From Acidobacteriota bacterium (GTDB lineage: Bacteria; Acidobacteriota; Terriglobia; Terriglobales; Acidobacteriaceae), in NCBI GenBank assembly GCA_021792795.1, contig JAJYUB010000018.1:1-64000 (forward strand): a DNA stretch of 64,000 bases, in the 5' to 3' direction. Under the pieces are notes generated by a model that saw nothing but the letters and a program-made list of their open reading frames with translations, was not told the origin of the DNA and did no database searches. Below, piece after piece: positions 35,954-51,342 of the stretch. Numbering within the stretch: the first letter of the stretch is position 1; the number at the start of each line of letters is the position of its first letter. Both the position numbers and the translations under genes were made by a program.

Positions 35954-38005
35954 CTATTGGGTCTTGGTTGCCTCGACAAGCAGTTCAACCGACGGAACCA
36001 CCATGTCGACCACCACCGCCTGGGGCTTTTCAGCGATTTTGAGCGACGCTAAATTTTGCTGTCGCTTGTCTGCGCTGACGACACGATTGTTTTCGAGATC
36101 GTCCAACGCCTGCAGGCCTACTGTTGCCACCTGCGCCAGGATATGCGAGACGGGCGCCAAATCCGCCGTCAAGTCCGACTTCACCAGCAACGGTTGCAGC
36201 TTGGCATCGTTATCTCGCCACAGAATCAGCCACTGCTTCGCTTGCTGAAACTGCTCCGGCGTCGCCTTTCCAAAGGCAATCTGCCTGGCAAGGTCATTGA
36301 ATTTGCGCGCCGTTTCGCTCTCTGGAGGGACCGCATCCGCAAGGCGATTGAGCGGCGTAAACGTGTTGTATTTCGCCAAACTCTCGCGTTCATAACCCAG
36401 CGGCGGTTGCACAACCGCAGCCAGCACCTTCAGCGGCACTGGATCGGATTCGCCGGTCATGCGTTGTAACATCCGGTCGGTAAAGTAGTCGTTGTTGAGG
36501 CCGTAATTCTCCAGCTTTTGCGACACAATGGCCATCCGCCGGTACATCGAAGGAACATCCCGCACCTGCTCCGGCGACCAGTATCGTTCGGCGATGGCTG
36601 CGGTGCGCGGCCAGATGCGGCTGTCGATGTTTTCCGGAGTGACGTACTCGCTCCACATCGTCGCTTCGCCGCCAAGAACGCGCGCCTTTTGCTGGGGTGT
36701 AAGGGAAGCGGCTGCGTCGCCGCCCAGCGGATCGACCAGATAATGCTCCGCGGCAGGTTGGTTCAAATCGATGTAATAGCCGGTCGAAAGTATGCCTCGA
36801 TTTCCTTGCCGCACGGCGACTGCCAAGGCAGTTTGCCCGCGCCAGGATTGAATCACCACATCCTTGGGTGTATTCGGCTGCAGCACTTCATCCCAACCTT
36901 CCATAATCTTGTGGTGCGCTGCGACCAGTTTCTGCACTCTGCCGGTGAAATATGCCTGCAGTGCTGCGTTATCGCGCAAGCCGTGGGCACGCATGAAAGC
37001 CTGGATGTGCGGATTGGCATTCCATTCTTTTCCATTGCACTCGTCGCCGCCAATGTGAAAATACTGATCGGGAAATAGTACGGTCATCTCCCCGATGAAA
37101 GTATTGAGGAACGTGTAGGTGCTCTCCCGCGTAGGATCCATCGCGGCATTCAATACGCCAAACCTGCGCGCAATGTGGTACGGACCTTTTCCACTCGCCA
37201 GGTCCGGATAGCCGACGAACCACGACGTGGTGTGGCAGGGCATGTCGAACTCAGGAACGACCCGGATTCCGCGGTCCCGCGCGTATTCGATCACCTCCCG
37301 AATCTGCGCTTGCGTATAGTACAGGCCGTCGGAGCCTTTTTCCTGCAGCAGCGGAAACTTCTCGCTCTCAGCCCGGAAGCCCTGGTCATCGGAAAGATGC
37401 CAATGGAAGACATTCAGCTTGACCGCTTCCATTGCATTCAGGTTGCGCTCGATCACAGGGATGGGCATAAAATGCCGGCCCACGTCGATCATCAGTCCTC
37501 GCCAGGGAAATCGCGGCTGGTCGTCGATGGTAACGACAGGGACGCTGAAACCTTGCGGAGTGGTCCGGACCAGTTGCAAAAAGGTCTGCAGGCCATGTAG
37601 AACGCCGAGCGGATTTGCCGCTGTCAGCTTCACGCCACTGGCGGAGATTTCCAGGCGATAGGATTCATCTTCTCCGAGCCGCTGCACGGGATCGCTGGGT
37701 CCGGCAGTTTGGACCACGAAACTGGGCCGGTTGAATTGCGCTTCGCGCCAGAGCGGAATGCCTGTTTCCCGCGAGAGTGTCACCAGGAATCGCTGTTGCG
37801 CCCGCTGCAATCGCGGTTCTGTGTAACCTTGCAATGCGATGCCGAAATTTCCGTCAATCGAAAATTGACCTTGTCCCTGCACATCATGGGAAGGCAACGG
37901 CATGATCGGGAGTGTCGTCTGAGCTTGCGCTATAAGATGCATCGAAAAACCAAATGCGCAGGCGAGAATCAAGAGAAGAGAACAAGGCAGGCCAACTCGT
38001 TTCAA
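35954..38005 (-). CDS. Secreted GH20 beta-N-acetylhexosaminidase
   Basis: Removes terminal GlcNAc or GalNAc from glycans. 683 residues with a signal peptide ending IAQAQ (about 1-29), an N-terminal GH20b-like alpha/beta domain, and the GH20 barrel from about 165 (FPWRGLMIDVGRHFMP, NVFHWHLSDDQGF). The catalytic Asp-Glu pair lies in HIGGDECNGKEW at about 321-322. The start is TTG at 38005, with GGAGGAT eight bases before it. It lies downstream of the PNGase gene and is part of the N-glycan island; GlcNAc released here could be used by the adjacent kinase. Confidence 0.93.
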   Translation of the reverse strand: MKRVGLPCSLLLILACAFGFSMHLIAQAQTTLPIMPLPSHDVQGQGQFSIDGNFGIALQGYTEPRLQRAQQRFLVTLSRETGIPLWREAQFNRPSFVVQTAGPSDPVQRLGEDESYRLEISASGVKLTAANPLGVLHGLQTFLQLVRTTPQGFSVPVVTIDDQPRFPWRGLMIDVGRHFMPIPVIERNLNAMEAVKLNVFHWHLSDDQGFRAESEKFPLLQEKGSDGLYYTQAQIREVIEYARDRGIRVVPEFDMPCHTTSWFVGYPDLASGKGPYHIARRFGVLNAAMDPTRESTYTFLNTFIGEMTVLFPDQYFHIGGDECNGKEWNANPHIQAFMRAHGLRDNAALQAYFTGRVQKLVAAHHKIMEGWDEVLQPNTPKDVVIQSWRGQTALAVAVRQGNRGILSTGYYIDLNQPAAEHYLVDPLGGDAAASLTPQQKARVLGGEATMWSEYVTPENIDSRIWPRTAAIAERYWSPEQVRDVPSMYRRMAIVSQKLENYGLNNDYFTDRMLQRMTGESDPVPLKVLAAVVQPPLGYERESLAKYNTFTPLNRLADAVPPESETARKFNDLARQIAFGKATPEQFQQAKQWLILWRDNDAKLQPLLVKSDLTADLAPVSHILAQVATVGLQALDDLENNRVVSADKRQQNLASLKIAEKPQAVVVDMVVPSVELLVEATKTQ

Positions 38006-38222
38006 GGTGCATCCTCCAGTGGCAAGGTTGGACGTGCGTTCGCAGGAATAACCGGACGCTCAATGAAATTCTACCGGCGCGAACAACTAGATTGACATGC
38101 AAAAACAAATAAGCGCGCATGGAGAGGGCGCCAGGTTGGCCGCGTCTCATCGCTAATATTTCTCAACTACAGCTGAAGAATACTTATACTGCAAGCAATC
38201 GTTGCTGCACAGCGTACCACGA

Positions 38223-38254
38223 AAAGGAGTTCGGCTTTTCCGCCGGACTCCTTT
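38223..38254 (-). terminator. Hairpin terminator after the PNGase gene
   Basis: On the minus strand a 13-bp stem AAAGGAGTCCGGC / GCCGAACTCCTTT (one G-T pair) with a six-base loop is followed by TTTT. It lies 27 nt after the stop at 38281, between the PNGase and GH20 genes, so these two are probably separate transcripts. Confidence 0.75.
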
Positions 38255-38280
38255 CCCTGGCAGTGAATCATGCTATTGGA

Positions 38281-39405
38281 TCAATGGTCGCGGTCTTCGC
38301 AATCCCTCCCGTCGCTGACATTGGTCAACACGTGCGCGGCCGCGGTGAGCGTGCGATCGTAGCAATGACCAAACGAGTCCCTGGAGCGATATGTCTGCGT
38401 GGTCATGGAACCGGTCGACCCCGTGACGTTAAAGTTGGCGTCGAAGTTGAGCGTGTCCGCTGCATTCACTTCATTGTGCAGTTTGCTGACATAAGCCTCG
38501 GACCCATTCACTTTCTGGGTTTTCCGGACCAAGTCCTGCTGATCGCTGGCGACCGTCTGAGTATAGGTGCCATCCGGATTCGCGACGAAGGAGTAGTTGA
38601 TGTTGAGTGGATAAGAGAAACGCTCCTCGACATTGCCTGAGTAAAAACCGCCGCGGGTGAAGGTGTGAGAATCGACGGTGGTCGTTTGCTGCGCGTTTTG
38701 CACGTCTGTGGCGGCATTCACGTCGAATTCCTGGGTGCTAAGGAAATCGACGCTCTGCCGCACAGTCGTCTCGACGCGACCGTGGGAAGTGTTGACGTAC
38801 CCTCTAATTTCAAAGTCGCGATTCGAGGCGACCGAGACGCTGCCGGTATATGTCGGTCCAGCGGCCGCAGTGATTTTTTCGGTGACAACCGGCGCAGGCG
38901 CCGCAGTGAGAGTGTTGCTGAGGATGCCGCCCGTGATCTTCTGCTTGCCGCGGTCGGTATACACCAGCAGGTTCGCAGTCGCGAGAAAATAGTTGTTTGC
39001 GTTGTAGACGCCGACGCCAACCGTGTGCGGATTGCCGTCGTCAAGGACCCCCGCGAAGGGCGTCAGATCGACGCGGTACGGCTTGAAGTCGATCGTCTGC
39101 ACTCCGGGGATAGGCTCCCAAAGATAGGGATCAATGCCGCCTGTATAAATCCACGGATAGACGGGCGCGACGCCGGCGGGTTTGCCGTCGATGGTCACCT
39201 CGGTCTCGCGGAAGGCAGTGTTGCCGCAGCTTTCGAGATTCGCGGTTTGATCGTTCGGCACGCAGAAGTACCAGAACTCATCGTTCGACTGGCTCTGCGC
39301 GATGATGTCGAGATAAACGCGCTCAACATTCATCGGCAAGTTTAGCACCTGCGTGATCTGGTCGGCAGTTGTATTGAGCGTGCCAGCATCGCCGCCGGGA
39401 ACCAT
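38281..39405 (-). CDS. C-terminal frame of the frameshifted PNGase A-type amidase
   Basis: Open frame of 374 residues from an internal ATG at 39405, which is not a plausible native start. It contains LNLPMNVERVYLDIIAQSQ, NDEFWYFCVPND and VYPWIYTGGIDPYLWEPIPG, typical of PNGase A, and a beta-rich C-terminal half with cysteines near the end. It lacks any export signal if translated alone. Confidence 0.8.
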   Translation of the reverse strand: MVPGGDAGTLNTTADQITQVLNLPMNVERVYLDIIAQSQSNDEFWYFCVPNDQTANLESCGNTAFRETEVTIDGKPAGVAPVYPWIYTGGIDPYLWEPIPGVQTIDFKPYRVDLTPFAGVLDDGNPHTVGVGVYNANNYFLATANLLVYTDRGKQKITGGILSNTLTAAPAPVVTEKITAAAGPTYTGSVSVASNRDFEIRGYVNTSHGRVETTVRQSVDFLSTQEFDVNAATDVQNAQQTTTVDSHTFTRGGFYSGNVEERFSYPLNINYSFVANPDGTYTQTVASDQQDLVRKTQKVNGSEAYVSKLHNEVNAADTLNFDANFNVTGSTGSMTTQTYRSRDSFGHCYDRTLTAAAHVLTNVSDGRDCEDRDH

Positions 39406-40015
39406 TCACCGGAACAACGATGTCTGGAGTCACTGCCGGACCGTCCTGCCAGGAGGCTGGATAAAATTCCAGCGCGGCATTGGCATAGATGATGCCGTTG
39501 TAGGTGACGCCGTTATACACGCCGACAAAATTCCCGATGTTGGCCTCTCCGGTCTGGTCAGCTTTGAAGATCGGCGTCAGGTCGGTGACATCGCGCTCCA
39601 CATGCCAGGACGGACTGAGTGCGGCGCGAGGTTCGGCAGTGGTGCCGTAATAGATATTTGCGTGGCCAAGATAGAAAGCGGCGGTGCGGTCAAACTGGCG
39701 GCCGGCGGTCACAGTAAAATCGGCGGTGAAGACGACTTTCGCCCACGGACCCGGACAGGCAGCCGGGGGCGTGTAGCTAAAGGGCTTGGTGTTGAAGTCG
39801 GCGAACTCGAGATTCTTGAAGAGTTGGACGACGCAGGGTTTGGTGTGGGGCCGCGGTACCGGCGGTTCGGCGGTCACTGGGTTGGAGGAACCAATCTGTG
39901 GATTTGGCGGAACGATCACGACTTGTGCGCGTGCCGCACTGAAGGTTGCCAACAAAAATGCGGCCGTCATCAGGGCCAACCGCCGCATGCCGAGTGGTGT
40001 TGCTGTCATTTGCAT
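39323..40015 (-). CDS. N-terminal frame of the frameshifted PNGase A-type amidase
   Basis: 230 residues: a signal peptide (MRRLALMTAAFLLATFSAARA), then HTKPCVVQLFKNLEFADFN, CPGPWAKVVFTADFTV and AAFYLGHANIYYGTT from the N-terminal beta-sandwich of PNGase A. After VPVNGS the sequence becomes arginine/cysteine-rich and unrelated to the family until the stop, as expected after a frameshift. Confidence 0.8.
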   Translation of the reverse strand: MQMTATPLGMRRLALMTAAFLLATFSAARAQVVIVPPNPQIGSSNPVTAEPPVPRPHTKPCVVQLFKNLEFADFNTKPFSYTPPAACPGPWAKVVFTADFTVTAGRQFDRTAAFYLGHANIYYGTTAEPRAALSPSWHVERDVTDLTPIFKADQTGEANIGNFVGVYNGVTYNGIIYANAALEFYPASWQDGPAVTPDIVVPVNGSRRRCWHAQYNCRPDHAGAKLADEC

Positions 40016-40200
40016 AACGCGTTCCTTTCGGACCTGCTAAGTTGCGTCGCCCAATATATCACGTTGCGTGAAGTAGAGTTCCGATTCGAGCAAAACTGCA
40101 ACCTGAGCCGCAGGGATGGAAACAACACGGTAAGTGGTGTCCCGGAGAGCACGCCTAGCCTCATGCACCACACGTCGGACACTTCGGCGCGGAGTCGATC

Positions 40201-41142
40201 TTATGAACGGGAAGCGCACTTGGCGGCGCGCCACAGCGCGCCCAGAGGAGGATCCGCGGGTCCCGGCTGAAACTGCACCGCTGGGTCTGAGCGATGAATG
40301 GCCACGATCGTACACTCCCGCAGGAAAGAGATTTTTTCGACGACACTGCCGGTATAGGCGACTGTCCAGGGCTCGACCGTGGAAAAATGAGACGACGCGC
40401 TGGATTCAAGGGCAGATCCCTTGCGCATGGCCAGCAGAACAAGGTCGGCGAGTTCTTCGCCGGACTGTTGCAGCACGCTGCGGGCCACGGCGTCTCCCGC
40501 AGCAGCCGCTTCCGCAACCAGAGGCGCCAGCTTTGAAAATTCCACCACAGGAAGGCTATTTCCGCGCTCGATTAAATCCTCGATTGTATGCGTGCCCCAG
40601 GCGGCATGAATCGCGGGCAGTAACGCCGTCGCTTCCGACGCATCCTGCGCATGAAACATGGCGCGCAGTGCCAGCAGGCCAATCCTGGTTCCCGCGCCCT
40701 GGTCGCTCATTACTGGCCCCCATCCTCCCGTACGCACCAGTTGTCCGTCGCGGGCTCGACCCACCACGTGCGAGCCAGTGCCGGCGATTGCCAGAATGCC
40801 GCGACCACCGTGAAACGCAGCATCCAGCGCGATCAATTCGTCACCGCAAATTTCAATCGTGCCGCTGACATGCGCAGCCAGCGCATTCCGTACCCAGTCG
40901 GCCACGCTGGAAATGGAGATGCCAGACAATCCCACGCAGGTGCCGGTGATGGCACTGAGCGCGACTCCGGATTGCTGGACGAGAAAAGAGAGGACATCCT
41001 GCAAATGCTTTTCGGCATCGGCTTCACTGACGCGGGCGACTTTGATGGAGCCACCGTGTGCCCGCGCCAGCACATCCGTTTCCGTGCCCAGGACACAGTT
41101 GGTTTTCGTTGCGCCTGCATCGATCCCGAGAAAGTATGCCAT
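40201..41142 (-). CDS. BadF/BcrA-type ATPase, probable N-acetylglucosamine kinase
   Basis: 313-residue sugar-kinase-fold protein. The phosphate-1 motif FLGIDAGATKTNCVLG is at the N-terminus, with VGLSGIS, ICGDELIALDAAF, GILAIAGTGSHVVGR and GGWGPVMSDQGAGTRIG, matching the GlcNAc-kinase branch of the BadF/BadG family. It would convert free GlcNAc to GlcNAc-6-phosphate in the cytoplasm. It starts 4 nt after the GH18 gene, indicating one operon, which supports the GlcNAc assignment; a 2-oxo-acid dehydratase activator role is unlikely as the cysteine pattern is absent. Confidence 0.85.
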   Translation of the reverse strand: MAYFLGIDAGATKTNCVLGTETDVLARAHGGSIKVARVSEADAEKHLQDVLSFLVQQSGVALSAITGTCVGLSGISISSVADWVRNALAAHVSGTIEICGDELIALDAAFHGGRGILAIAGTGSHVVGRARDGQLVRTGGWGPVMSDQGAGTRIGLLALRAMFHAQDASEATALLPAIHAAWGTHTIEDLIERGNSLPVVEFSKLAPLVAEAAAAGDAVARSVLQQSGEELADLVLLAMRKGSALESSASSHFSTVEPWTVAYTGSVVEKISFLRECTIVAIHRSDPAVQFQPGPADPPLGALWRAAKCASRS

Positions 41143-41146
41143 GCGG

Positions 41147-42226
41147 CTAATTCTTCTTTGGCTGCGAAGCCGGGTGAACGGCCGATTGATCGCGCGAAGG
41201 CAACTGCTGCCAGATCGCAGGATCTTCCTCTCCCAGCACCCAGGAGCAGAAGCCCTCCAGCCCGTCCTGCTTCACCAGGTCGTAGCGCGCGGCAAAGGTG
41301 CGCGCGTCGGTGTAGAAAATGTACTCGCGATCTTGCGCGCGATAGAAATAGAACCACGCCGTCTTGTCCTCGGAGTCCCACTGCAGTTTGGCGTTGTAGG
41401 CATGGGCCAATTGCATTGCTGCCGGCGTGCCGATGTATTCCGCGGAATTGTTGGGCACGTTCTTGCCGCCGACCGGCATTCCCGCAAACCAGTGATATCC
41501 GTAGACAGGAATGCCGAGGGAGAGCTTGTCTTTTGGCACCACGGCGAGCGCGTATTTCAGATTTTCAAGCACCCACGGGTAGCCTGCGACCGGCCCCGGC
41601 GGCGTGTAGGCGGTGTGTTGATCGTAGGTCATCAGGCAGATCAGGTCAGCAGACTGTGCCAGCGCCTTCAGATCGTACGCGCCGCGCCAGTCGCGATACA
41701 TCCACGCGCTATACGCAGTTTCCGGGGGATAGCCCGGCGCGTTGGGAACCGTAGCGATCGAGAGCTGAAAGCCCGCTGCATGCAGCGCAGCCGCCGTTTC
41801 CGCCACCGTTTTCGAAAGCGCGCCTGCGTCTTGCCAGTCGATGTCTTCAAAGTCAAACTGGATGCCGAGGTAGCCATTCTGCTTGCAAATGCGGACGAGG
41901 GCTTCGTCCATCGCGCGACGCGCAGCTTCATCGTTGAAGAACTGATGGTACTCCGCCGTTCCCATGGCGCTGCCGCCAATGATCGGCATGACGGCGACAT
42001 GATGTTCGCGCGCCACCTGCATCACCTGTGGATTGGGACCGCCCCAAACCATCCCATGCACGTCGGTCGAGTACCAAGTGGGCACAAGAATGTCGATTTT
42101 GTCGGCATGGTCGAGGAACGATTGCACCGAGGTCGGACCGCTGGTCATGTAAAACAGTGCTTTCGGTTGAGCGTTCAGTATTGGCGCGCTGATCGCAAGC
42201 CCAAGCAGAATACAAAGGGTACGCAT
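41147..42226 (-). CDS. Secreted GH18-family glycoside hydrolase
   Basis: 359 residues with signal peptide MRTLCILLGLAISAPILNAQ. The GH18 barrel is recognised from VMPIIGG, GYLGIQFDFEDIDW, SADLICLMTYDQHT and LGIPVYGYHWF. The catalytic Glu is at about 127 with the preceding Asp at 125, but the first two aspartates of the DxxDxDxE signature are Leu and Gln, as in divergent YaaH/SleL-like members. Endo-beta-N-acetylglucosaminidase or chitinase-like activity is possible; the island context favours action on the GlcNAc core of N-glycans. GGAGGT precedes the ATG by seven bases. Confidence 0.85.
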   Translation of the reverse strand: MRTLCILLGLAISAPILNAQPKALFYMTSGPTSVQSFLDHADKIDILVPTWYSTDVHGMVWGGPNPQVMQVAREHHVAVMPIIGGSAMGTAEYHQFFNDEAARRAMDEALVRICKQNGYLGIQFDFEDIDWQDAGALSKTVAETAAALHAAGFQLSIATVPNAPGYPPETAYSAWMYRDWRGAYDLKALAQSADLICLMTYDQHTAYTPPGPVAGYPWVLENLKYALAVVPKDKLSLGIPVYGYHWFAGMPVGGKNVPNNSAEYIGTPAAMQLAHAYNAKLQWDSEDKTAWFYFYRAQDREYIFYTDARTFAARYDLVKQDGLEGFCSWVLGEEDPAIWQQLPSRDQSAVHPASQPKKN

Positions 42227-42542
42227 TCAAAGACCTCCATGAGCGATGCTCAGTATAAATTTTTCAACATTACCGTTGTCTGTAAAGGCGTTGAATCACG
42301 GTCTCCGCACCTGCCAGTTTCTTTTGGGTCTGGCGGATGCCGTGGAGTTCTACGCATCGACAGGACAGCGCCTTGATTTTATCGGTTTCTTTCGTTTCCA
42401 CGAATCGATCGGCAAAACAATGTTGCGCGAAGGCCGTCGAAATCTTACTGCAGTATCGATGGTCTCTTGTCGAACTGGAGCGCGGCATGCGTATGCGAAG
42501 CTGGATGTTCTGATACATTGATCTGGAAAACTGGGAGTGAAC
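42227..42542. other. Divergent intergenic region between GH18 and glycosylasparaginase
   Basis: 316 nt holding the start regions of both genes. On the minus strand TTTATACTG (about 42253) could be the GH18 -10 element; no good -35 partner was found. Short frames here resemble no known family. Confidence 0.4.
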
Positions 42543-43790
42543 ATGATGTCGACAACTCGCCGCGATTTTTTGTCTCGTACCGCAATGATGGCTGCCGGAA
42601 CGGTTGGGGTGGGAGCGGGCGAAACTGCGAATCGAAACGGTCCCGCAGACATCTCGTTGCAATATCAGCCGCCCAAAAAACCGGTGATCGTGACCCGCGA
42701 AACCGGGGACGATACGGTGGCCGAAGCGTATGCCATGCTGGAGCGCGGCGGGGACACGTTGAACGCAGCGCTGCACATCTGCCAGGGGCGCGAGGACGAC
42801 CCGAACGACCACAGCGTGGGACTGGGCGGCCTTCCCAATGAAGATGGCGTGGTGGAACTGGATGCCAGCGTCATGCATGGGCCGACGCGGCAAGCAGGAG
42901 CCGTCGGCGCTGTGCAGAACATTCGCCACGCCGCGCTGCTGGCGGAAACCGTGATGCAACGTACCGCTCACGTGATGATTGTGGGGAACGGCGCCGAGAA
43001 ATTCGCCGTTGACGAGGGCTTCCAGCGCGAAAATTTGTTGACCGACGACGCGCGGAAAATCTGGCTGTTGTGGAAAGAGCATAGCAACGGCTGGTGGGGG
43101 CCGGGACTCGACAGTCCGGATTGGAAACCCCCAGCAGTCGGAAAGCCTGCGCAGGGACCCATGGCCAGGTTGATGCCGCGGCACCCCAGCGAAGAGCAAG
43201 CGCCCATGGTAAAGGACGCACTGCGACGCCTGTCTGAAATGGCGGACCGAATGGGCATTCGTCCGGACTTGCGGCGCGAGGCGGCGCTGCAAGTACTGTG
43301 GCCCACGACGGGCACGATCCATGTCTCCGCCTTGAATACGAAAGGTGAAATGTCGGGAGCGACCACAACTTCCGGATTGGCCTGGAAGATTCCTGGACGG
43401 TTGGGCGACTCGCCCATTATCGGAGCGGGTTGCTATACGGACCAGGACATAGGTTCGGCGGGCGCGACAGGAAACGGAGAGGAAAACATCAAGGTCGCAG
43501 GCGCGCATACGATTGTGGACCAGATGCGCCAAGGCGCCACTCCTAAAGAAGCCGGCATGGAAGCGCTGCGCAGGATCGCGCGCAACTACAACAACGACAT
43601 GACCAAATTGCGCTATCTGGACATGATTTACTACATCGTCCGGCGCGACGGCGCGTACGCCGGCGTGTCGCTATGGAGCACGCGCGGCACGGGGGCCCGA
43701 AAAAATTTCGTCGTGCATGACGGCACGTTGCGAACTGAACCCTGCGACTATTTGTACGAGGGCACAACCCTGAGTATGCATCCATTCTGA
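42543..43790 (+). CDS. N4-(beta-N-acetylglucosaminyl)-L-asparaginase (glycosylasparaginase)
   Basis: Ntn-hydrolase that splits GlcNAc-Asn into amino-GlcNAc and aspartate. 415 residues with a twin-arginine signal (TTRRDFLSRTAMMAAG). Typical sequences are GGDTLNAALHICQ, SVGLGGLPNEDGVVELDASVMHG in the alpha part, and GTIHVSALNTKGEMSGATTTSG around the autocatalytic threonine at about 258, then GRLGDSPIIGAGCYTD. The residue before the threonine is glycine rather than the aspartate of human and Flavobacterium enzymes. ATG at 42543 follows a GGGAG sequence. It converges on the GH29 gene. Confidence 0.92.
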   Translation: MMSTTRRDFLSRTAMMAAGTVGVGAGETANRNGPADISLQYQPPKKPVIVTRETGDDTVAEAYAMLERGGDTLNAALHICQGREDDPNDHSVGLGGLPNEDGVVELDASVMHGPTRQAGAVGAVQNIRHAALLAETVMQRTAHVMIVGNGAEKFAVDEGFQRENLLTDDARKIWLLWKEHSNGWWGPGLDSPDWKPPAVGKPAQGPMARLMPRHPSEEQAPMVKDALRRLSEMADRMGIRPDLRREAALQVLWPTTGTIHVSALNTKGEMSGATTTSGLAWKIPGRLGDSPIIGAGCYTDQDIGSAGATGNGEENIKVAGAHTIVDQMRQGATPKEAGMEALRRIARNYNNDMTKLRYLDMIYYIVRRDGAYAGVSLWSTRGTGARKNFVVHDGTLRTEPCDYLYEGTTLSMHPF

Positions 43791-43854
43791 AGCGCGACGC
43801 GGAAGCGCGAAATGTTGCGTGGGCCCGAATGGATTTCCGCTGCTGCGAACATTG

Positions 43855-45543
43855 TCACAATTTTCGCAGCAGGATGCTTCCGGCGTCGGCGCATTTCAAG
43901 CGGCCTTCGATCACCACCTTTTGACCGATGCCGGGCATGGTGAGGACCCAAACATCCCGCGATCCAGCGAGCGGCCGCAGCAGTTTCGGCTCCTGCACGC
44001 CACCGATCTGCACCGTTACATGCTCGATCGGCTCCGCACAATTGCCCCATCCTGTTTGCGGAACAAAGCGCAGTCGATATTGCGTGGCGGCCACAATCTT
44101 GTCGGACACGTCGATGTGGAAGCTGTAGTTGCTCCAGGTTCCGACTTCGTCGTAGGCCCAGGCGGTTGCGGGAGAGTCCCAATGTTTGGGCGGCGGAGTT
44201 TGTGTATCGAATACGGCGAGTCGGCGAATGACGGGGCGGGCGGCACTTTCAAAAGCGACCAGTCGCACCGCGTCGGCGGTTGTCGGCGGAACCGGCTGTA
44301 TTCGTTTGTGTCCGATTGCGGTTCCGGCGCCCAGCGTGATCCACTTCCCTGCCTGACGCGCTTCGATTTTGTATTGGCGTACGCGCTCGCCGAAGGAACA
44401 GTCTTCCTGCATCAGGAATGTATCGACGCGAGAACCAGCGGCCAGCGGCAGCGTGACGCTCTCGCCCGAGCCGGAAGTCTCTGCCACACTTTTTCCGAAG
44501 CGACGCTGAATCTCTTTTCCAAACTCCTGCGCACGTGCAATGTCGGCGGCTGGCATGAGCCCTGTTGTGTCCGGCGGAACATTCAGCAGCAACTGCGCGC
44601 CCCGCCCAATGGAGCGGTAATAAATTTCCAGCAATGCATCGAGCGAGAGCAAATTGCGCTGGCTTTTCTCGCTCCAAAACCAGTTGGGGCGCAAGATGGA
44701 AACGTCCACTTCGTTCGGCATCCAGACGGTCCCGTTGGGGTCTCCGTTCAGCGCAGTCGCAATGCCGGTCTTCGCATCGGCGGCGGAGATGGAGTTCCAT
44801 GCGGGATAGGGCACGAAGCCGTCTTCATTCCCGGCCCAGCGGATGGTCGCATGCGGGCCTTGGAAGATCATCGCGTGCGGGGCATATTTTGCGAGAATGT
44901 CGCCGACGGGAATGACATTCGAACCGTCGAACCATATCTCCACCATGGAACCGTATCGCGACAGCACCTCAGTGAGCTGGCGGCGATAGATGGCGTTGTA
45001 GATTTGCTGCTGCGCGGGCGTCTTGCAGAGACCGCCGATTTCCGCGCCGAACTTTGCGTCGCGCGGGGAAACATAGACGCCCAGCTTCAATCCGTATTTA
45101 CGGCAGGAAGCGGAAACGTCGGCCAATACATCGCCGTGCCCGCCTCGCCACGGCGTGTTGCGGATGCCGTAGTGGGTCGTCTCCGTCTGCCACATGCAGA
45201 AGCCGCCAGAATGCTTGGCGACGAAGACGATATATTTTGCGCCCAGGTCGACGGCGGTGGAGGCCCATTGATCGGTATTCAACTGCGTTGGATTGATGGC
45301 CGACAGCGGAGTGGACAAATTATCCTGCTCGACACCCTGCCAGGTGTTGGGAGCGAAATGGATGAACATTCCCATTTCGAGGTCCTGCCATGCCAGTTGT
45401 TCCGCGGTCGGGTCGGCCAGGCGACCGAGATGAGCGCGCGCATTTGCCGACAGCGCAGCGTTCCGTTCGGCTGAGGCGATCCCTGGGACAGAAAGTCCCG
45501 CGGCCATTCCAGTAAGAAAAGCGATGAAGCTGCGTCGGTCCAT
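43855..45543 (-). CDS. GH29 alpha-L-fucosidase, Tat-exported
   Basis: 562 residues with a twin-arginine signal (MDRRSFIAFLTGMAAG). The GH29 barrel has MGMFIHFAPNTWQG, KHSGGFCMW, YVSPRDAKFG and the nucleophile aspartate in VEIWFDGSN at about 206. A beta-sandwich of about 150 residues follows, resembling an F5/8-type carbohydrate-binding module. It removes fucose, for example core fucose of N-glycans or terminal fucose on antennae. ATG at 45543 has AGGAGG eight bases upstream; an in-frame TTG lies at 45549. It is divergent from the TonB-dependent receptor. Confidence 0.93.
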   Translation of the reverse strand: MDRRSFIAFLTGMAAGLSVPGIASAERNAALSANARAHLGRLADPTAEQLAWQDLEMGMFIHFAPNTWQGVEQDNLSTPLSAINPTQLNTDQWASTAVDLGAKYIVFVAKHSGGFCMWQTETTHYGIRNTPWRGGHGDVLADVSASCRKYGLKLGVYVSPRDAKFGAEIGGLCKTPAQQQIYNAIYRRQLTEVLSRYGSMVEIWFDGSNVIPVGDILAKYAPHAMIFQGPHATIRWAGNEDGFVPYPAWNSISAADAKTGIATALNGDPNGTVWMPNEVDVSILRPNWFWSEKSQRNLLSLDALLEIYYRSIGRGAQLLLNVPPDTTGLMPAADIARAQEFGKEIQRRFGKSVAETSGSGESVTLPLAAGSRVDTFLMQEDCSFGERVRQYKIEARQAGKWITLGAGTAIGHKRIQPVPPTTADAVRLVAFESAARPVIRRLAVFDTQTPPPKHWDSPATAWAYDEVGTWSNYSFHIDVSDKIVAATQYRLRFVPQTGWGNCAEPIEHVTVQIGGVQEPKLLRPLAGSRDVWVLTMPGIGQKVVIEGRLKCADAGSILLRKL

Positions 45544-45969
45544 CCTCAATCCTCCTTGCAGAATCTCTCCGGTTTCGCAGGCGATCTTGTGGAAAACCTA
45601 CGCGCCTGTTCCCTGCGCAGCAAAGTCACGACCCCAGAAGCAGCGCCAACCGGCTGTCCGAGCCATGGTGGTCAGTAGACCCTCAAATGTCTCAAAGGAA
45701 GGACGATAGCATTGATCGGTTCGATCAAACAACTCCCAGTCCAACCGAATGTGCGCAGTCTACGATCAGAAACTGAGCATGTTCTTCAGGAAAACAGTTT
45801 ACACCGCCAATTAATGGCGTATATGATTATTCCGACGAAAGATCCAGTCATATTTTGATCGCCTTTTGCGCACGTACGCATTACGGAGCAATCCGATAAA
45901 CGCTTGAAATCTGTGGGGCCGGTAGTGAGAAACAACGCTGTATCAACGAAGGAAGGTAGGGAATTAACC
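45544..45969. other. Divergent regulatory region between GH29 and the TonB-dependent receptor
   Basis: 426 nt without a supported gene, more A+T-rich than the flanks. It contains a good promoter for the receptor with an embedded inverted repeat (separate entry). Promoter elements for the fucosidase gene on the other strand were not identified. Confidence 0.5.
45798..45827 (+). promoter_or_regulatory. Promoter of the TonB-dependent receptor with an operator-like palindrome
   Basis: TTTACA (45798-45803) and TATGAT (45822-45827) are separated by 18 nt. The spacer is occupied by CGCCA-ATTAA-TGGCG (45805-45819), an inverted repeat placed where a repressor would block RNA polymerase. The 5' leader would be about 135 nt. 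A DeoR-type regulator is encoded downstream and is a candidate binder. Confidence 0.55.
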
Positions 45970-48900
45970 ATGTGTCAGTCGAAGCAACAACCTCTGCTGC
46001 GGCTTGCGTTAGCGGTCGCTTTCGGTGTATTCGTGCTTTTCGGAAGCCAGCTCGTTTCAGCACAAAATGCACAGGGAACAATTCTGGGGCATGTCGTAGA
46101 TCCTTCTGGCGCCGCTGTTGCTGGGGCCAAGGTGACGATTACCAACCACAATACGAACGTGCAGAGCAGCTTTGTCACGAACTCTACTGGCGACTACACG
46201 GTCCCAAATCTGAATCCGGGCCCGTATTCCGTCTCCGTTGTGGCGCCAGGCTTCCAGACATCAACCTCTTCAAACGTGATTCTCGAAGTGCAACAGACGC
46301 TGCGTCAGGACTTCAATCTCGTCGTTGGCAGCGTGGCGACGACCGTGGCGGTTTCGGCAAGTACGCAGATGCTGCATACTTCCGACGCCACTGTGGGACA
46401 GGTGATCCAAGGCAAACTGATGGAAGCGCTGCCTATGAATGGCCGTGACTTTACCAACCTGATGCTGACCAACATCGGCACCAACATCACGCCGGGAGGG
46501 TCGGGGGTCGACTGGAGCTACCATGGCTTGAATACGGAATACATGGAAGTCAGCGCGGACGGGGCCCAGGCCCAGTCCACCAGCTACAGCGTCGATGGCG
46601 TTTACGATGCCGATTATTTCTTCAGCGTGCCAATCAACATCCCGACTGAGAGCGCCATTCAGGAATTTAAAATGATGAACGGCATGTATGGCGCGGAGTA
46701 TGGCCCAGGCGTCGCCCAGGTAAACGTGGCGATCAAATCCGGCACCAACCAGTTGCATGGTGAATTGTATGAGACGTTTCAGAACAACGATTTGCAGCCC
46801 GACAACCAGTACGTAGCGGCCCAGAACAGGATTACCGGCAGCCATATACCGTTGAGTACACCCTACAGCCAGAACCAGTTCGGAGGCGCAGGCGGCGGTC
46901 CACTCGATGTCCCATTCCTGTACAACGGAAAGAACCGCACCTTCTGGTTTGTCGCCTACGATGGGGGGCGTTACAACGCCACAAATAGCCCATCTTCCGT
47001 TCTCTCGCCATCCGCAGCGGAATTGAGCGGAGACTTCAGCGCATGGCCCTATCCGATCTACAATCCACTGACGACCGTTCCGAATCCCGCATATAACTCC
47101 GGCCTCCCCTTAAGCCCCACAAATTCTCCAATCATCCGCACGCCATTCGCGGGAAATCAAATCCCCACCACGCAGTTGGATCCTGTTGCTGCGAAAATGG
47201 CAACCTACTTCAACACACCGAACAATCCAAACTGCACGGACGCACAAAGCATTACAACCGGCTGCTTTGACTATTCCGCCAACACGGAAACAACCAAAAG
47301 GACGGACGTGGAAACGGTGCGGTTCGACCAATATTTTGGAAAGAGCGACCATGTTTTCCTGACTGGAAACATGGGGAATCTGTCCCAGGAAAGCAGCAGC
47401 ATCTCCTTTGGCCAAGGCGGCACAACCTATGCGAGGCCCAAACTTTTTGGCGGCACATGGAGCCATGTTTTCAATCCAAACACATTGAACCAGGCTACGC
47501 TTGGGTATAGCCGCGACCATTTCCTGACAGGGCCCAGCACGGCATACGGTCCAAACCTTTCCGCATTGGTCGGTTTTGCCAATAGCGTGCCGAACCCGGC
47601 CACCTACGATCTGCCCGGGACCTGCCTTTTCAATTACTACTGTATCGGCGGCGGGGAACCGACGACGTATGTGGACAATATCTATCAGGGAGTCGATACA
47701 GTCACGCTGGTCCGCGGACGACACAATATGGACTTCGGCATCGACGCCCGCCGGATCCAGCTTTTTGAACTCGACAATTACCTGGGGACGGGGTCCCTCA
47801 ACTTCAATGGGCAATATACGTCGCTTGTTCCAGGCTTTGCCGGACAGGCCTGGAGCAGCAATGGCGTGGTAAATCCTAATCTCCCTTACGCAGGAAATGC
47901 GGCTGCGGACTTTGCGCTGGGCGACCCGAATTCGGCCAGCGGGCCACCTCCGCTGGGGACAGACGACTACATCCTTTGGGGCGTTAACTGGAACCTTTAT
48001 TTCCAGGACAACATCCACGTCTCGAACCATCTCACCTTAAACGCCGGCCTGCGCTGGGAAAGGCCACCAAACTTTCATTCCAAAGATGCCAGCGGCTATG
48101 CTTTCAACCCCAATAATGGCGGACAATTGGTGTGGGCCAACTGCGCCTTTCCTACTTCGATTCTGGCGGCAGGGGGCAGCCCACAGTATTTAGGCTGCGG
48201 CGCCAGCGATACATTGGTACCGATCGATAACAAGGACTTCGCTCCCCGCGTTGGCTTTGCCTACAACCCATCATTTTGGAACAGCAAGTTCGTCCTCCGC
48301 GGTGGGTTTGGCATCTTCTACGGCCTCTACAACCGCTACTACGACGGTACCCAGTTCGATAAAAACAGCATATACAACAAGGCGGCAGCCCCCTATGCCA
48401 ACACAACCGGGCAAGAAACACAGTCCACAGCGGTGCTGAAGAACCTGTGGTCACCTCCGATTACCGCCGATCAAAGCTTCAGCCTGCCATCGTACCTGTT
48501 CCCGTACAACCAGGTGAACTGGCCAACCAACCATAATCCTTACGATTATCAATGGAACCTTGACACCGAATACTCGTTGACAGAGTCGTTAATGCTGGAT
48601 GTCGGGTATGTAGGAGACGCCGGACGGCGCCAGCCCAGCCAGGACATTGTTGGGGCCGGCACGCCACCGACCGTGGCCGGAGATACTTGCAACTCACTGG
48701 CCGATATTTCCCAGGCGACCGGCGGCAACGCAGGCTGCCTCTCGGACCCGAACTTCCAGCCGATTGACACGCGCACTCCGTTCAAGAACATGCCGCCGTA
48801 CTTCTACGCCAATATCAACGGCTTCTCGTCCAGCTACAATGCGCTGCAGGTGCAGTTGATCCAGCGTCCATGGCATGGCTTGGTCTACCACCTGAATTAC

Positions 48901-49575
48901 ACATACTCGAAGACCATGGACCTCACTTCCGGCATCAACCTCATCGACGGCGAGCCAAGCCTGATCCAGAACCCGCACAATCCTTACAAGGAGTATGGAC
49001 TGGCGGCCTCCGACCAGACCAATCGTTTTGTTGCCACGTATGCGTATCAGGTCCCGGACCACCTGATTCATAAGAAGGGCCTGGACATGCTCAGTTCCGG
49101 TTGGACTGCGAGCGGGGTCTATCAACTGGCCAGCGGCTTCCCGTTCGCCATCTATGGGAACCCCTCCGCGGACCAGATGGCTGAATTTTATGGCAGCCGG
49201 TTCCTGGCCAACTCCACCTTCCAAACGACTCCGGGATTCAAGAGTACGCTGCGGCGCTACTTCGACACCTCCAAGTACTCCACACCGGAGTTGGGCCGTT
49301 ATGGCAATACCAACAAAAGTCCGGAACGCGGGCCCTACTTCACCAACCTGGATGCCAGCTTCGGGAAAACCACCAATCTGGGCGGACAGCGGGTCTTGAT
49401 TACGCGCGCGGAGTTCTTCAATCTCGGATCAACCTGGCATGCCAATCCGGGGCAAGTATTTCCAGATTCGACGGTCACCGATACGAATTTTGGATCGTTG
49501 ATCAACCCGACCTACGGCAACGTTTCGTTGTGGAACCCCCGCATCCTTCAGCTCACGGCGGAGTTTACCTTTTAG
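45970..49575 (+). CDS. Oar-like TonB-dependent outer-membrane receptor
   Basis: 1201 residues. A signal peptide ends around LVSAQNAQ, followed by a carboxypeptidase-regulatory-like domain (about 30-115: GTILGHVVDPSGAAVAGAKVTI), a plug-like region with LPMNGRDFTNLML, and a long beta-barrel ending in LQLTAEFTF with the terminal aromatic residue used for barrel insertion. Acidobacteria use large families of such proteins for uptake of oligomers. No SusD partner is encoded nearby. ATG at 45970 lies after AGGGA; the frame is open to 45904. In this island the likely cargo is glycopeptide or N-glycan, but that is inference from neighbours. Confidence 0.92.
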   Translation: MCQSKQQPLLRLALAVAFGVFVLFGSQLVSAQNAQGTILGHVVDPSGAAVAGAKVTITNHNTNVQSSFVTNSTGDYTVPNLNPGPYSVSVVAPGFQTSTSSNVILEVQQTLRQDFNLVVGSVATTVAVSASTQMLHTSDATVGQVIQGKLMEALPMNGRDFTNLMLTNIGTNITPGGSGVDWSYHGLNTEYMEVSADGAQAQSTSYSVDGVYDADYFFSVPINIPTESAIQEFKMMNGMYGAEYGPGVAQVNVAIKSGTNQLHGELYETFQNNDLQPDNQYVAAQNRITGSHIPLSTPYSQNQFGGAGGGPLDVPFLYNGKNRTFWFVAYDGGRYNATNSPSSVLSPSAAELSGDFSAWPYPIYNPLTTVPNPAYNSGLPLSPTNSPIIRTPFAGNQIPTTQLDPVAAKMATYFNTPNNPNCTDAQSITTGCFDYSANTETTKRTDVETVRFDQYFGKSDHVFLTGNMGNLSQESSSISFGQGGTTYARPKLFGGTWSHVFNPNTLNQATLGYSRDHFLTGPSTAYGPNLSALVGFANSVPNPATYDLPGTCLFNYYCIGGGEPTTYVDNIYQGVDTVTLVRGRHNMDFGIDARRIQLFELDNYLGTGSLNFNGQYTSLVPGFAGQAWSSNGVVNPNLPYAGNAAADFALGDPNSASGPPPLGTDDYILWGVNWNLYFQDNIHVSNHLTLNAGLRWERPPNFHSKDASGYAFNPNNGGQLVWANCAFPTSILAAGGSPQYLGCGASDTLVPIDNKDFAPRVGFAYNPSFWNSKFVLRGGFGIFYGLYNRYYDGTQFDKNSIYNKAAAPYANTTGQETQSTAVLKNLWSPPITADQSFSLPSYLFPYNQVNWPTNHNPYDYQWNLDTEYSLTESLMLDVGYVGDAGRRQPSQDIVGAGTPPTVAGDTCNSLADISQATGGNAGCLSDPNFQPIDTRTPFKNMPPYFYANINGFSSSYNALQVQLIQRPWHGLVYHLNYTYSKTMDLTSGINLIDGEPSLIQNPHNPYKEYGLAASDQTNRFVATYAYQVPDHLIHKKGLDMLSSGWTASGVYQLASGFPFAIYGNPSADQMAEFYGSRFLANSTFQTTPGFKSTLRRYFDTSKYSTPELGRYGNTNKSPERGPYFTNLDASFGKTTNLGGQRVLITRAEFFNLGSTWHANPGQVFPDSTVTDTNFGSLINPTYGNVSLWNPRILQLTAEFTF

Positions 49576-49660
49576 CTGAAGGCCGCTTGATCTTGAGGTT
49601 GGGACATGCTCGCTGATTTCGGCTTCCTTACTACGATGGCAGCAAGGGAGCCGCTTCCTC

Positions 49661-49722
49661 AACATTCGGATTTCTGCGCGAAAGCGAAAGCAGTTTCCGC
49701 GCAGATGTCCGAATGTTTTTTG
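49661..49722 (+). terminator. Two-part hairpin terminator after the receptor gene
   Basis: Outer stem AACATTCGGA (49661-49670) / TCCGAATGTT (49708-49717) and inner stem CTGCGCG (49674-49680) / CGCGCAG (49698-49704), followed by TTTTTTGTTT. It lies 85 nt after the receptor stop and shows that any in-frame ATG at 49713 cannot be the cutC start. Confidence 0.9.
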
Positions 49723-49733
49723 TTTGGACACGA

Positions 49734-50510
49734 ATGAAGAACATGATGCTCGAGATTTGTGTGGATTCCGTGGAATCGGCGCTCGCGTCCGAAGCGGGAG
49801 GAGCGCAGCGGATTGAATTGTGCAGCGATCTGAACGAGGGCGGCATTACGCCGAGTGCCGGCCTGATCCAGGCAGTTCGCAAGCACGTCGGAATCGACGT
49901 GTTTGTGATGGTGCGGCCCAGGGGCGGGGACTCCTTCTACACGGACCATGAATACGGAGTGATGCAAGCGGACGTCCTCCGGGTCAAGGAACTGGGAGCG
50001 GACGGGATTGTTCTCGGCTTGCTCGACAAGGAGGGCCAGGTCGATGTGGAACGGACCCGAGAACTGGTCCGCCTGGCCCACCCCATGCAAGTGACGTTTC
50101 ATCGCGCTTTCGATATGTCCGCCGATCTGGATGGGTCGCTGGAGCGAGTCATCCAGACGGGCGCGCACCGCATCCTGACCTCTGGCGGCATGCAGACAGT
50201 TACCCAGGGCGCCGATCGGGTCACGCACCTGATCGACGCTGCAAAAGGAAGGATCCATATCATGGTGGGCGGCGGAATCCGCCAGGAGAACATCCGCAAA
50301 ATCGCTCTGCGTACCCGCGCCACGGAATTCCATTGCTCCTTGAGGATCAAAACACGCAGTCCCGTCACCTTCCGGAACCATTCCCTGAAACTGGGCGCGG
50401 TGGCCAATGATGAATTTGCGCGCTACGTCGTTCTCGAAGAGAATGTACGTGGGTTGCGCGAAGCGCTGAATAAAATCTCGAGCGGAGTTCTCCAGGGTGT
50501 TTACGAATAA
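49734..50510 (+). CDS. cutC: CutC-family protein
   Basis: 258-residue TIM-barrel protein of the CutC family: LEICVDSVESALASEAGGAQRIELC, GGITPSAGLI, MVRPRGGDSFYTDHE, FHRAFDMSADL and ILTSGGMQT. The family was named for copper homeostasis in E. coli, but a direct copper role is doubtful. The start could be ATG at 49734, 49743 or 49746; an upstream ATG at 49713 falls inside a terminator. It overlaps the regulator gene by 14 nt and sits inside the N-glycan island, which suggests a link to amino-sugar metabolism (inference). Confidence 0.9.
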   Translation: MKNMMLEICVDSVESALASEAGGAQRIELCSDLNEGGITPSAGLIQAVRKHVGIDVFVMVRPRGGDSFYTDHEYGVMQADVLRVKELGADGIVLGLLDKEGQVDVERTRELVRLAHPMQVTFHRAFDMSADLDGSLERVIQTGAHRILTSGGMQTVTQGADRVTHLIDAAKGRIHIMVGGGIRQENIRKIALRTRATEFHCSLRIKTRSPVTFRNHSLKLGAVANDEFARYVVLEENVRGLREALNKISSGVLQGVYE

Positions 50511-51342
50511 CACGCATTTCACTGCATCCGGCGAAATTGGGCCTTCCGCCGCGGTTGTATCTTCCAAGATCGACAAGCGCGCCAAGGAAATTCTGCGGCT
50601 GCTTCTCCACCACGGCCGGACATCCGTCGATGAATTGACGGTGATCCTGAAAATGTCGCCCGCAAGCGTGCGCCGCGATCTGGTACGACTGGAAGAACGC
50701 GGACTGGTCCATCGCACCCACGGCGGCGCCATGCTGGCAGGCCACGCCGTCTATGAGCCTTTCCGCTTCGACGCCTCATTTGGGGTACGCGAGGAGCGTT
50801 TCGCAAAAGAGAAGCAGCGAATCGCGCAGGCGGCGGCGGACATGGTACAGGAGAACGAAACGGTAGGCATTACAGCCGGGACGACGACCACGCAGGTAGC
50901 ACAATGCCTTCGCCATCGCAGCAACCTCCACATCATTACCAACGCCGTCAATATTGCCATGGAGTTGAGCAGCAGCGCGGGTTTGGACACCACCCTGACA
51001 GGCGGTCGCATGCGCTGGCAAGGGGCGTTCTCGCTGATTGGGCCGGCGGCCATCGAATCGTTGAACGTAGTCGTGATGGACCGGGTCTTTGTCGGCGTCT
51101 GCGGTGTCGATCCGGAGCGCGGGGCAACCACCATCGAAGCGGATGAGGCCGCGGTCTTTCGCGCCATGACGCGTCAGACCAAGCACGTCGTCGTCGTGGC
51201 CGATTCCAGTAAGGTTGGCATGATCAGTCCGATCATCATCTGCCCGGCTGCAGCCATCGATGTCTTGATTACCGACGACGGTATCCCCGACGACGCCGTG
51301 GCTGCTTTTGAAAAGGCCGGCGTCCGCGTCCTGAGCGTCTGA
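50497..51342 (+). CDS. DeoR-family sugar-responsive transcriptional regulator
   Basis: 281 residues. A winged HTH at about 26-80 (RAKEILRLLLHHGRTSVDELTVIL, SVRRDLVRLEERGLVHRTHGGAML) is followed by the sugar-phosphate-binding ISOCOT domain (ITAGTTTTQVAQCL, LTGGRMRW, GVCGVDPERGATT). Such proteins are normally repressors released by a sugar phosphate. It starts at GTG 50497 inside the end of cutC, so the two are co-transcribed. It is the only regulator in the N-glycan island and is the best candidate for controlling it; GlcNAc-6-phosphate is a plausible but unproven effector. Confidence 0.9.
   Translation: MFTNNTHFTASGEIGPSAAVVSSKIDKRAKEILRLLLHHGRTSVDELTVILKMSPASVRRDLVRLEERGLVHRTHGGAMLAGHAVYEPFRFDASFGVREERFAKEKQRIAQAAADMVQENETVGITAGTTTTQVAQCLRHRSNLHIITNAVNIAMELSSSAGLDTTLTGGRMRWQGAFSLIGPAAIESLNVVVMDRVFVGVCGVDPERGATTIEADEAAVFRAMTRQTKHVVVVADSSKVGMISPIIICPAAAIDVLITDDGIPDDAVAAFEKAGVRVLSV

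Follow-up and report, generated by a model that had tools for sequence, protein, structure and literature searches.

A PNGase A-type gene in the window (the whole 64-kb stretch of DNA analysed here) is spread over two overlapping reading frames. The locus poses the question of whether the organism has lost a working acid PNGase, has an intact gene that its assembly misrepresents by one base, or makes its enzyme from two frames by design. We find a gene of a known enzyme family with its frame broken, a case that is ordinary overall, and consider it probable that a one-base insertion or deletion has recently and genuinely inactivated a conventional secreted acid PNGase (PNGase A or PNGase H+ type). 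The wider interest of the locus lies in the piecemeal loss, within one genus, of the gene cluster to which it belongs.

The two frames, both on the minus strand in the open-reading-frame listing, encode 230 and 374 amino acids (Table 1), are offset by one base and overlap at 39323-39405 (83 bases). Both match the Pfam family PF12222 (PNGaseA, 336 positions) above its cut-off of 25.3 bits, the N-terminal half over positions 9-150 (E 1.5e-19, 70.4 bits) and the C-terminal half over positions 161-333 (E 3.6e-35, 121.7 bits). Against PNGase_A_C, the C-terminal half scored E 2.6e-6 and 27.8 bits, slightly under the cut-off of 27.9. Because the two parts of the PF12222 profile are consecutive, do not overlap each other and meet where the frames overlap, this is no chance pattern; by sequence, the gene is a member of the family, though not an intact one. 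An earlier note on this DNA had described two PNGase halves in frames one base apart, and the frames and profile matches confirm that description.

Table 1 Positions of the PNGase frames and of neighbouring genes in the window
Feature	Position	Strand	Evidence
GH20 beta-N-acetylhexosaminidase, downstream of PNGase, single open frame	35954..38005	-	Pfam
PNGase A-type C-terminal half, second jelly roll and PNGase_A_C region	38281..39405	-	ORF, Pfam and alignment
PNGase A-type N-terminal half, first jelly roll, with ~25 out-of-frame residues at its end	39323..40015	-	ORF, Pfam and alignment
One-base frame-change stretch	39397..39402	-	Sequence and relatives; model switch at 39406
BadF-family NagK-like sugar kinase, upstream of PNGase, open frame	40201..41142	-	Pfam; NagK match below model cut-off
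GH18 family glycosidase	41147..42226	-	Pfam
Asparaginase_2 family amidase	42537..43790	+	Profile match; beta-aspartyl-peptidase match below cut-off
Alpha-L-fucosidase (GH29)	43855..45549	-	Pfam

A codon-usage model that allows frame switches placed a single switch in the 64-kb window, within this gene (Table 1). The earlier note had proposed that a CCC run read as CC restores the frame. The run is present (39399-39397), but it is only one possibility within the frame-change stretch: the junction residue is T, S, A or P in close relatives, so the exact base within that stretch cannot be assigned.

The sequence AAAGGA precedes the ATG of the first frame, and the start of the N-terminal half looks like a signal peptide by eye. 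On inspection, the second frame had an internal ATG without a ribosome-binding-like sequence in front of it, and no secretion signal was visible. A one-base insertion or deletion near 39397-39402 would disable the gene: translation from 40015 would read the first jelly roll, then go out of frame and stop at 39323, and the product would be a first domain, secreted if the signal-like start functions, with a nonsense tail. As the remainder would have neither a secretion signal nor a recognisable translation start, a complete enzyme would not be expected, and activity would presumably be lost.

Directly past the PNGase stop, at 38221-38254, an inverted repeat is followed by T-rich sequence and is terminator-like by eye. 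It was absent from the output of a promoter and terminator scan, which returned 0 and 3 sites, respectively, versus 0.8 and 2.0 in shuffled sequences.

Continuity in relatives and position of the break

The C-terminal half was matched in 7 of 61 genomes, the window's own included, and in all six relatives the gene is a single open frame of 579-625 amino acids from stop to stop, with no internal stop. In a scan of species genomes, which may leave out the window's own, the junction was read in one frame at 16 of 16 loci, each with a stop-free stretch of at least 213 residues preceding the start of the match in that frame; the two sets overlap by two contigs (G007 = L049 and G019 = L060). A family-wide search of 300 genomes, evenly drawn from a larger group, matched PF12222 in 103, and at least one undivided match was present in 100 of the 102 genomes other than the window's. 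Within the genome of origin, the PF12222 search found no second PNGase copy, and plasmid records gave no match to the gene.

A PF12222 member would be expected as one continuous polypeptide, and the sequence that occupies two frames here occupies one in the relatives; a frame broken in this genome and intact in its relatives is as expected of a frameshift pseudogene. Since the relatives checked across the junction are single open frames, we do not regard the locus as a two-gene design. We also rejected a two-gene layout as a family trait, as the other divided matches have causes of their own: that of G288 is divided by contig ends, the PNGase A-type gene of G293 (L075, G293:C311) has its own frame break elsewhere, near profile position 81-84, and G296 has partial matches beside a full copy, one stopping at a contig end and another being a fragment (C345). 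The earlier note had interpreted the locus as an interruption of a formerly continuous PNGase A-type gene, which agrees with the intact gene in every relative of both sets, and the comparison with siblings that it recommended turned up no separate functional genes in two frames with their own starts.

Programmed +1 frameshifting, which would yield the full enzyme alongside a short product containing the first domain, is highly improbable. The overlap would allow a ribosome to switch frame and go on, and both halves are conserved, but inspection of the frame-change site found neither a stop codon nor a recognisable slip motif, and the first stop of the entering frame (39325-39323) lies ~75 bases beyond it. 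The second frame, moreover, occurs in 0 of 6 and 0 of 16 homologues, and the local DNA varies between relatives. With no recognised combination of slip motif and stop, and with the two-frame layout absent from the relatives examined, we set this explanation aside, as the doubt expressed in the earlier note had anticipated.

We located the break in the fold using a model of the continuous homologue from G007, built from 16 sequences (mean pLDDT 76.5, pTM 0.79, with residues 248-264 and 291-300 below pLDDT 50). Single-domain fold matches span ~57-190 and ~196-356 of this model, and PNGase F-type enzymes and Ngly2 align over ~40-59 to 351-357 (Z 14.7-16.8). The junction corresponds to residues 205-207; strand one of the second domain occupies 199-203, and the loop that follows it holds the junction. 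On the model, the frame change is thus near the border of two jelly-roll domains, at the start of the second, and from this position neither half would be a full enzyme. Going by the fold, one may guess that the break lies between the two catalytic residues; the profile search used to place the PNGase F catalytic pair on this family listed only PDB 9vla.

A break near a domain border also makes a two-chain enzyme imaginable, encoded by two separate functional genes. The almond enzyme PNGase A consists of two chains that arise by proteolysis, and a protein split in the loop that follows the opening strand of the second jelly roll, as placed on the G007 model, might reassemble. We nevertheless give such a two-chain PNGase very little credence: the second frame offers only its internal ATG, lacking a ribosome-binding-like sequence in front and any visible secretion signal, the first frame ends in ~25 unrelated residues, and the layout is not a design in any relative examined.

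Age of the break and frame breaks elsewhere in the assembly

Apart from the single base, no decay is visible in the gene. It keeps 99 of the 100 columns that are invariant among 16 homologues, the exception being one L to I, and 69 of the 71 columns common to 14-15 of the 16. Amino-acid changes on the window and G007 sides, counted with four outgroups, were 25 v 35, 22 v 29, 16 v 34 and 23 v 29, and these four comparisons gave no excess on the window branch of the kind expected from relaxed selection after the break. Relative to G007, both halves have low dN/dS (dN 0.06-0.21, dS 1.1-1.8), although this ratio is only rough because dS exceeds 1 and is near saturation, and two NG86 dS values were undefined (printed as -1). 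The conserved columns and the relative-rate counts rule out a long-decayed pseudogene; the break is either very recent or an assembly error. The earlier note had offered the same pair of options on the ground that both halves keep family motifs, and both options fit the near-complete set of invariant columns and the lack of excess amino-acid change.

An assembly or consensus error would leave the organism with an intact acid PNGase and the draft with one wrong base. We regard this as a possible, less favoured explanation. It would account for a single base being the only defect while other conserved features are intact, and for the low dN/dS of both halves, and it would look like a genuine inactivation in every such respect. 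The genome is a 133-contig draft, and spurious frameshifts and pseudogenes in public assemblies, arising for example from low coverage, are documented (PMC11017572).

The frequency of frame breaks elsewhere in the genome bears on this explanation. An initial scan of 206,678 bases was extended to 485,789 bases (the 64-kb window and 422 kb sampled), with 438 coding segments entered. The sampled contigs, the first 30 by number and at most 20 kb from the start of each, form a small, non-random set, and the 64-kb window was the sole training data for the codon model. The scan flagged 22 frame switches, of which 16 were set aside for having fewer than 40 codons on one side and 6 had at least 40 on each. 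One of these six looks like two ordinary overlapping genes (L145), and another lies near a contig end with an upstream ORF that has no family match (L141).

Domain matches supported the other four breaks. Apart from the PNGase itself, they fall in a transposase gene, an MFS gene that is truncated and the gene for a conjugation coupling protein. The transposase (L067:1006-2054) occupies two frames and has HTH_33 and DDE_3 parts; it is presumably IS630-like, and its two-frame layout may be natural. The MFS sugar-transporter gene (L070:8998-9714) is similar to its family over the first third alone and then stops, with a possible frame change. The type IV secretion coupling protein (TrwB/TraD-like; L134:184-1879) is in two overlapping frames on a 5.1-kb contig. 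The L134 and L070 switch sites adjoin runs of five C, as slippage or indel errors would give, which counts against genuine inactivation of the PNGase gene. However, none of the breaks followed up in the 485,789 bases is in a housekeeping gene, and because all four domain-supported breaks are in dispensable gene types the sample leans towards biology. Within this sample, we rejected pervasive indel errors, given how few breaks the scan contains and the types of gene in which the domain-supported ones fall.

Erosion of a likely N-glycan cluster in the genus

The GH20, PNGase, kinase, GH18, Asparaginase_2 and GH29 genes form what we take to be a likely cluster for taking N-glycans apart. The cluster, at 35954-51342 of the window, also contains genes for a large outer-membrane beta-barrel protein, CutC and a DeoR-type regulator. 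Sister genomes were compared at this locus; as they are drafts (72-100% complete), gene absence is weaker evidence than scars.

Two sister genomes, G006 and G008 (L016 = G006:C279 and L017 = G008:C204), have lost the PNGase gene and bear the same deletion scar, in which the kinase reading frame continues without a shift into the last ~17 PNGase codons and ~1.9 kb of window sequence, counted by hand, is gone. The missing sequence lies between a GCCGC in the kinase end and another GCCGC in the PNGase tail. Beyond the scar, the GH20 gene of G008 is spaced roughly as usual; the G006 contig runs out shortly past the scar, and a GH20 orthologue was not found in that genome. The GH18 gene is 91% identical in DNA to the window in G006 and 82% in G008, and a scar shared despite these distances suggests an old polymorphism, a deletion that recurred at this short repeat, or recombination.

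Other sister genomes carry different lesions. The PNGase gene is kept and the kinase missing in G007, with ~200 bases between PNGase and GH18 (L113, G007:C73, 7004-7212). The kinase is in two frames in G009 (L109:1124-1946); in G004 (L110:8415-8669) only the first 85 residues of it remain, and the family-wide search found no PF12222 match in either genome. In G008, the GH29 fucosidase survives only as C-terminal fragments in three frames (L112:12198-12394). The N-glycan cluster is eroding differently from genome to genome in this genus.

Because sister genomes have lost PNGase and its neighbours by other lesions, genuine loss is somewhat likelier than an assembly error. On the reading we favour, the base change would be present in the organism itself, and the loss would be tolerated because the cluster is dispensable in the genus and lost piecemeal.

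A more specific account holds that the genus repeatedly discards its secreted PNGase, keeps other sugar-processing genes of the cluster and lives on N-glycans released by its neighbours, as public-goods (Black Queen) reasoning would have it. It builds on the removal of PNGase by a deletion in two genomes, G006 and G008, and by the frameshift described here, and we think it unlikely: in G007 PNGase survives and the kinase is lost, G004 and G009 have lost both, G008 has lost its fucosidase as well, and G006, with its contig ending at that point, gave no GH20 orthologue. The pattern of loss may instead be plain erosion of the whole cluster.

Until the reads have been checked, annotation should not credit this genome with a working acid PNGase or treat the two PNGase ORFs as two genes. 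The sister genomes and the window together provide a small series of different losses (deletion scar, frameshift and truncation) in one acidobacterial genus, and the cluster would lend itself to studying the loss of glycan-use loci in soil bacteria. Among the enzyme and assembly papers listed by searches of one literature library, none described PNGase gene loss in Acidobacteria.

Comparison with known PNGases and frameshift pseudogenes

Homologues of the PNGase H+ and PNGase A family occur in Acidobacteria, as here. The acid PNGase H+ of Terriglobus roseus (PMC4231336) and a panel of acidobacterial enzymes (PMC7348039) belong to PF12222, as do both window halves. The T. roseus enzyme is reported to have a 28-residue secretion signal (PMC4231336), to be set beside the signal-like start of the window gene, and several members of the panel are active, others having negligible activity (PMC7348039). 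These published acid PNGases were expressed as continuous proteins, whereas the window gene is interrupted between its jelly-roll domains.

The best solved relative of the G007 homologue is PNGase Bb (PDB 9vla; sequence E 6.7e-55), which aligns with the model of that homologue, not with the broken window gene, at Z 33.0 over 500 residues (27% identity, rmsd 3.3) and is one continuous chain, unlike the window gene. PNGase F (PDB 1pnf) and zebrafish Ngly2 (PDB 9lwg) share the two-jelly-roll core with the G007 model (Z 15.4 and 14.7) at only 12 and 14% identity, and are assigned to other Pfam families, PF09112 and PF09113.

As a lesion, one indel within a gene that is otherwise conserved, in a draft genome, resembles the bacterial frameshift pseudogenes, real or spurious, of PMC11017572. 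What differs here is that the gene sits in a cluster that other lesions have struck in sister genomes.
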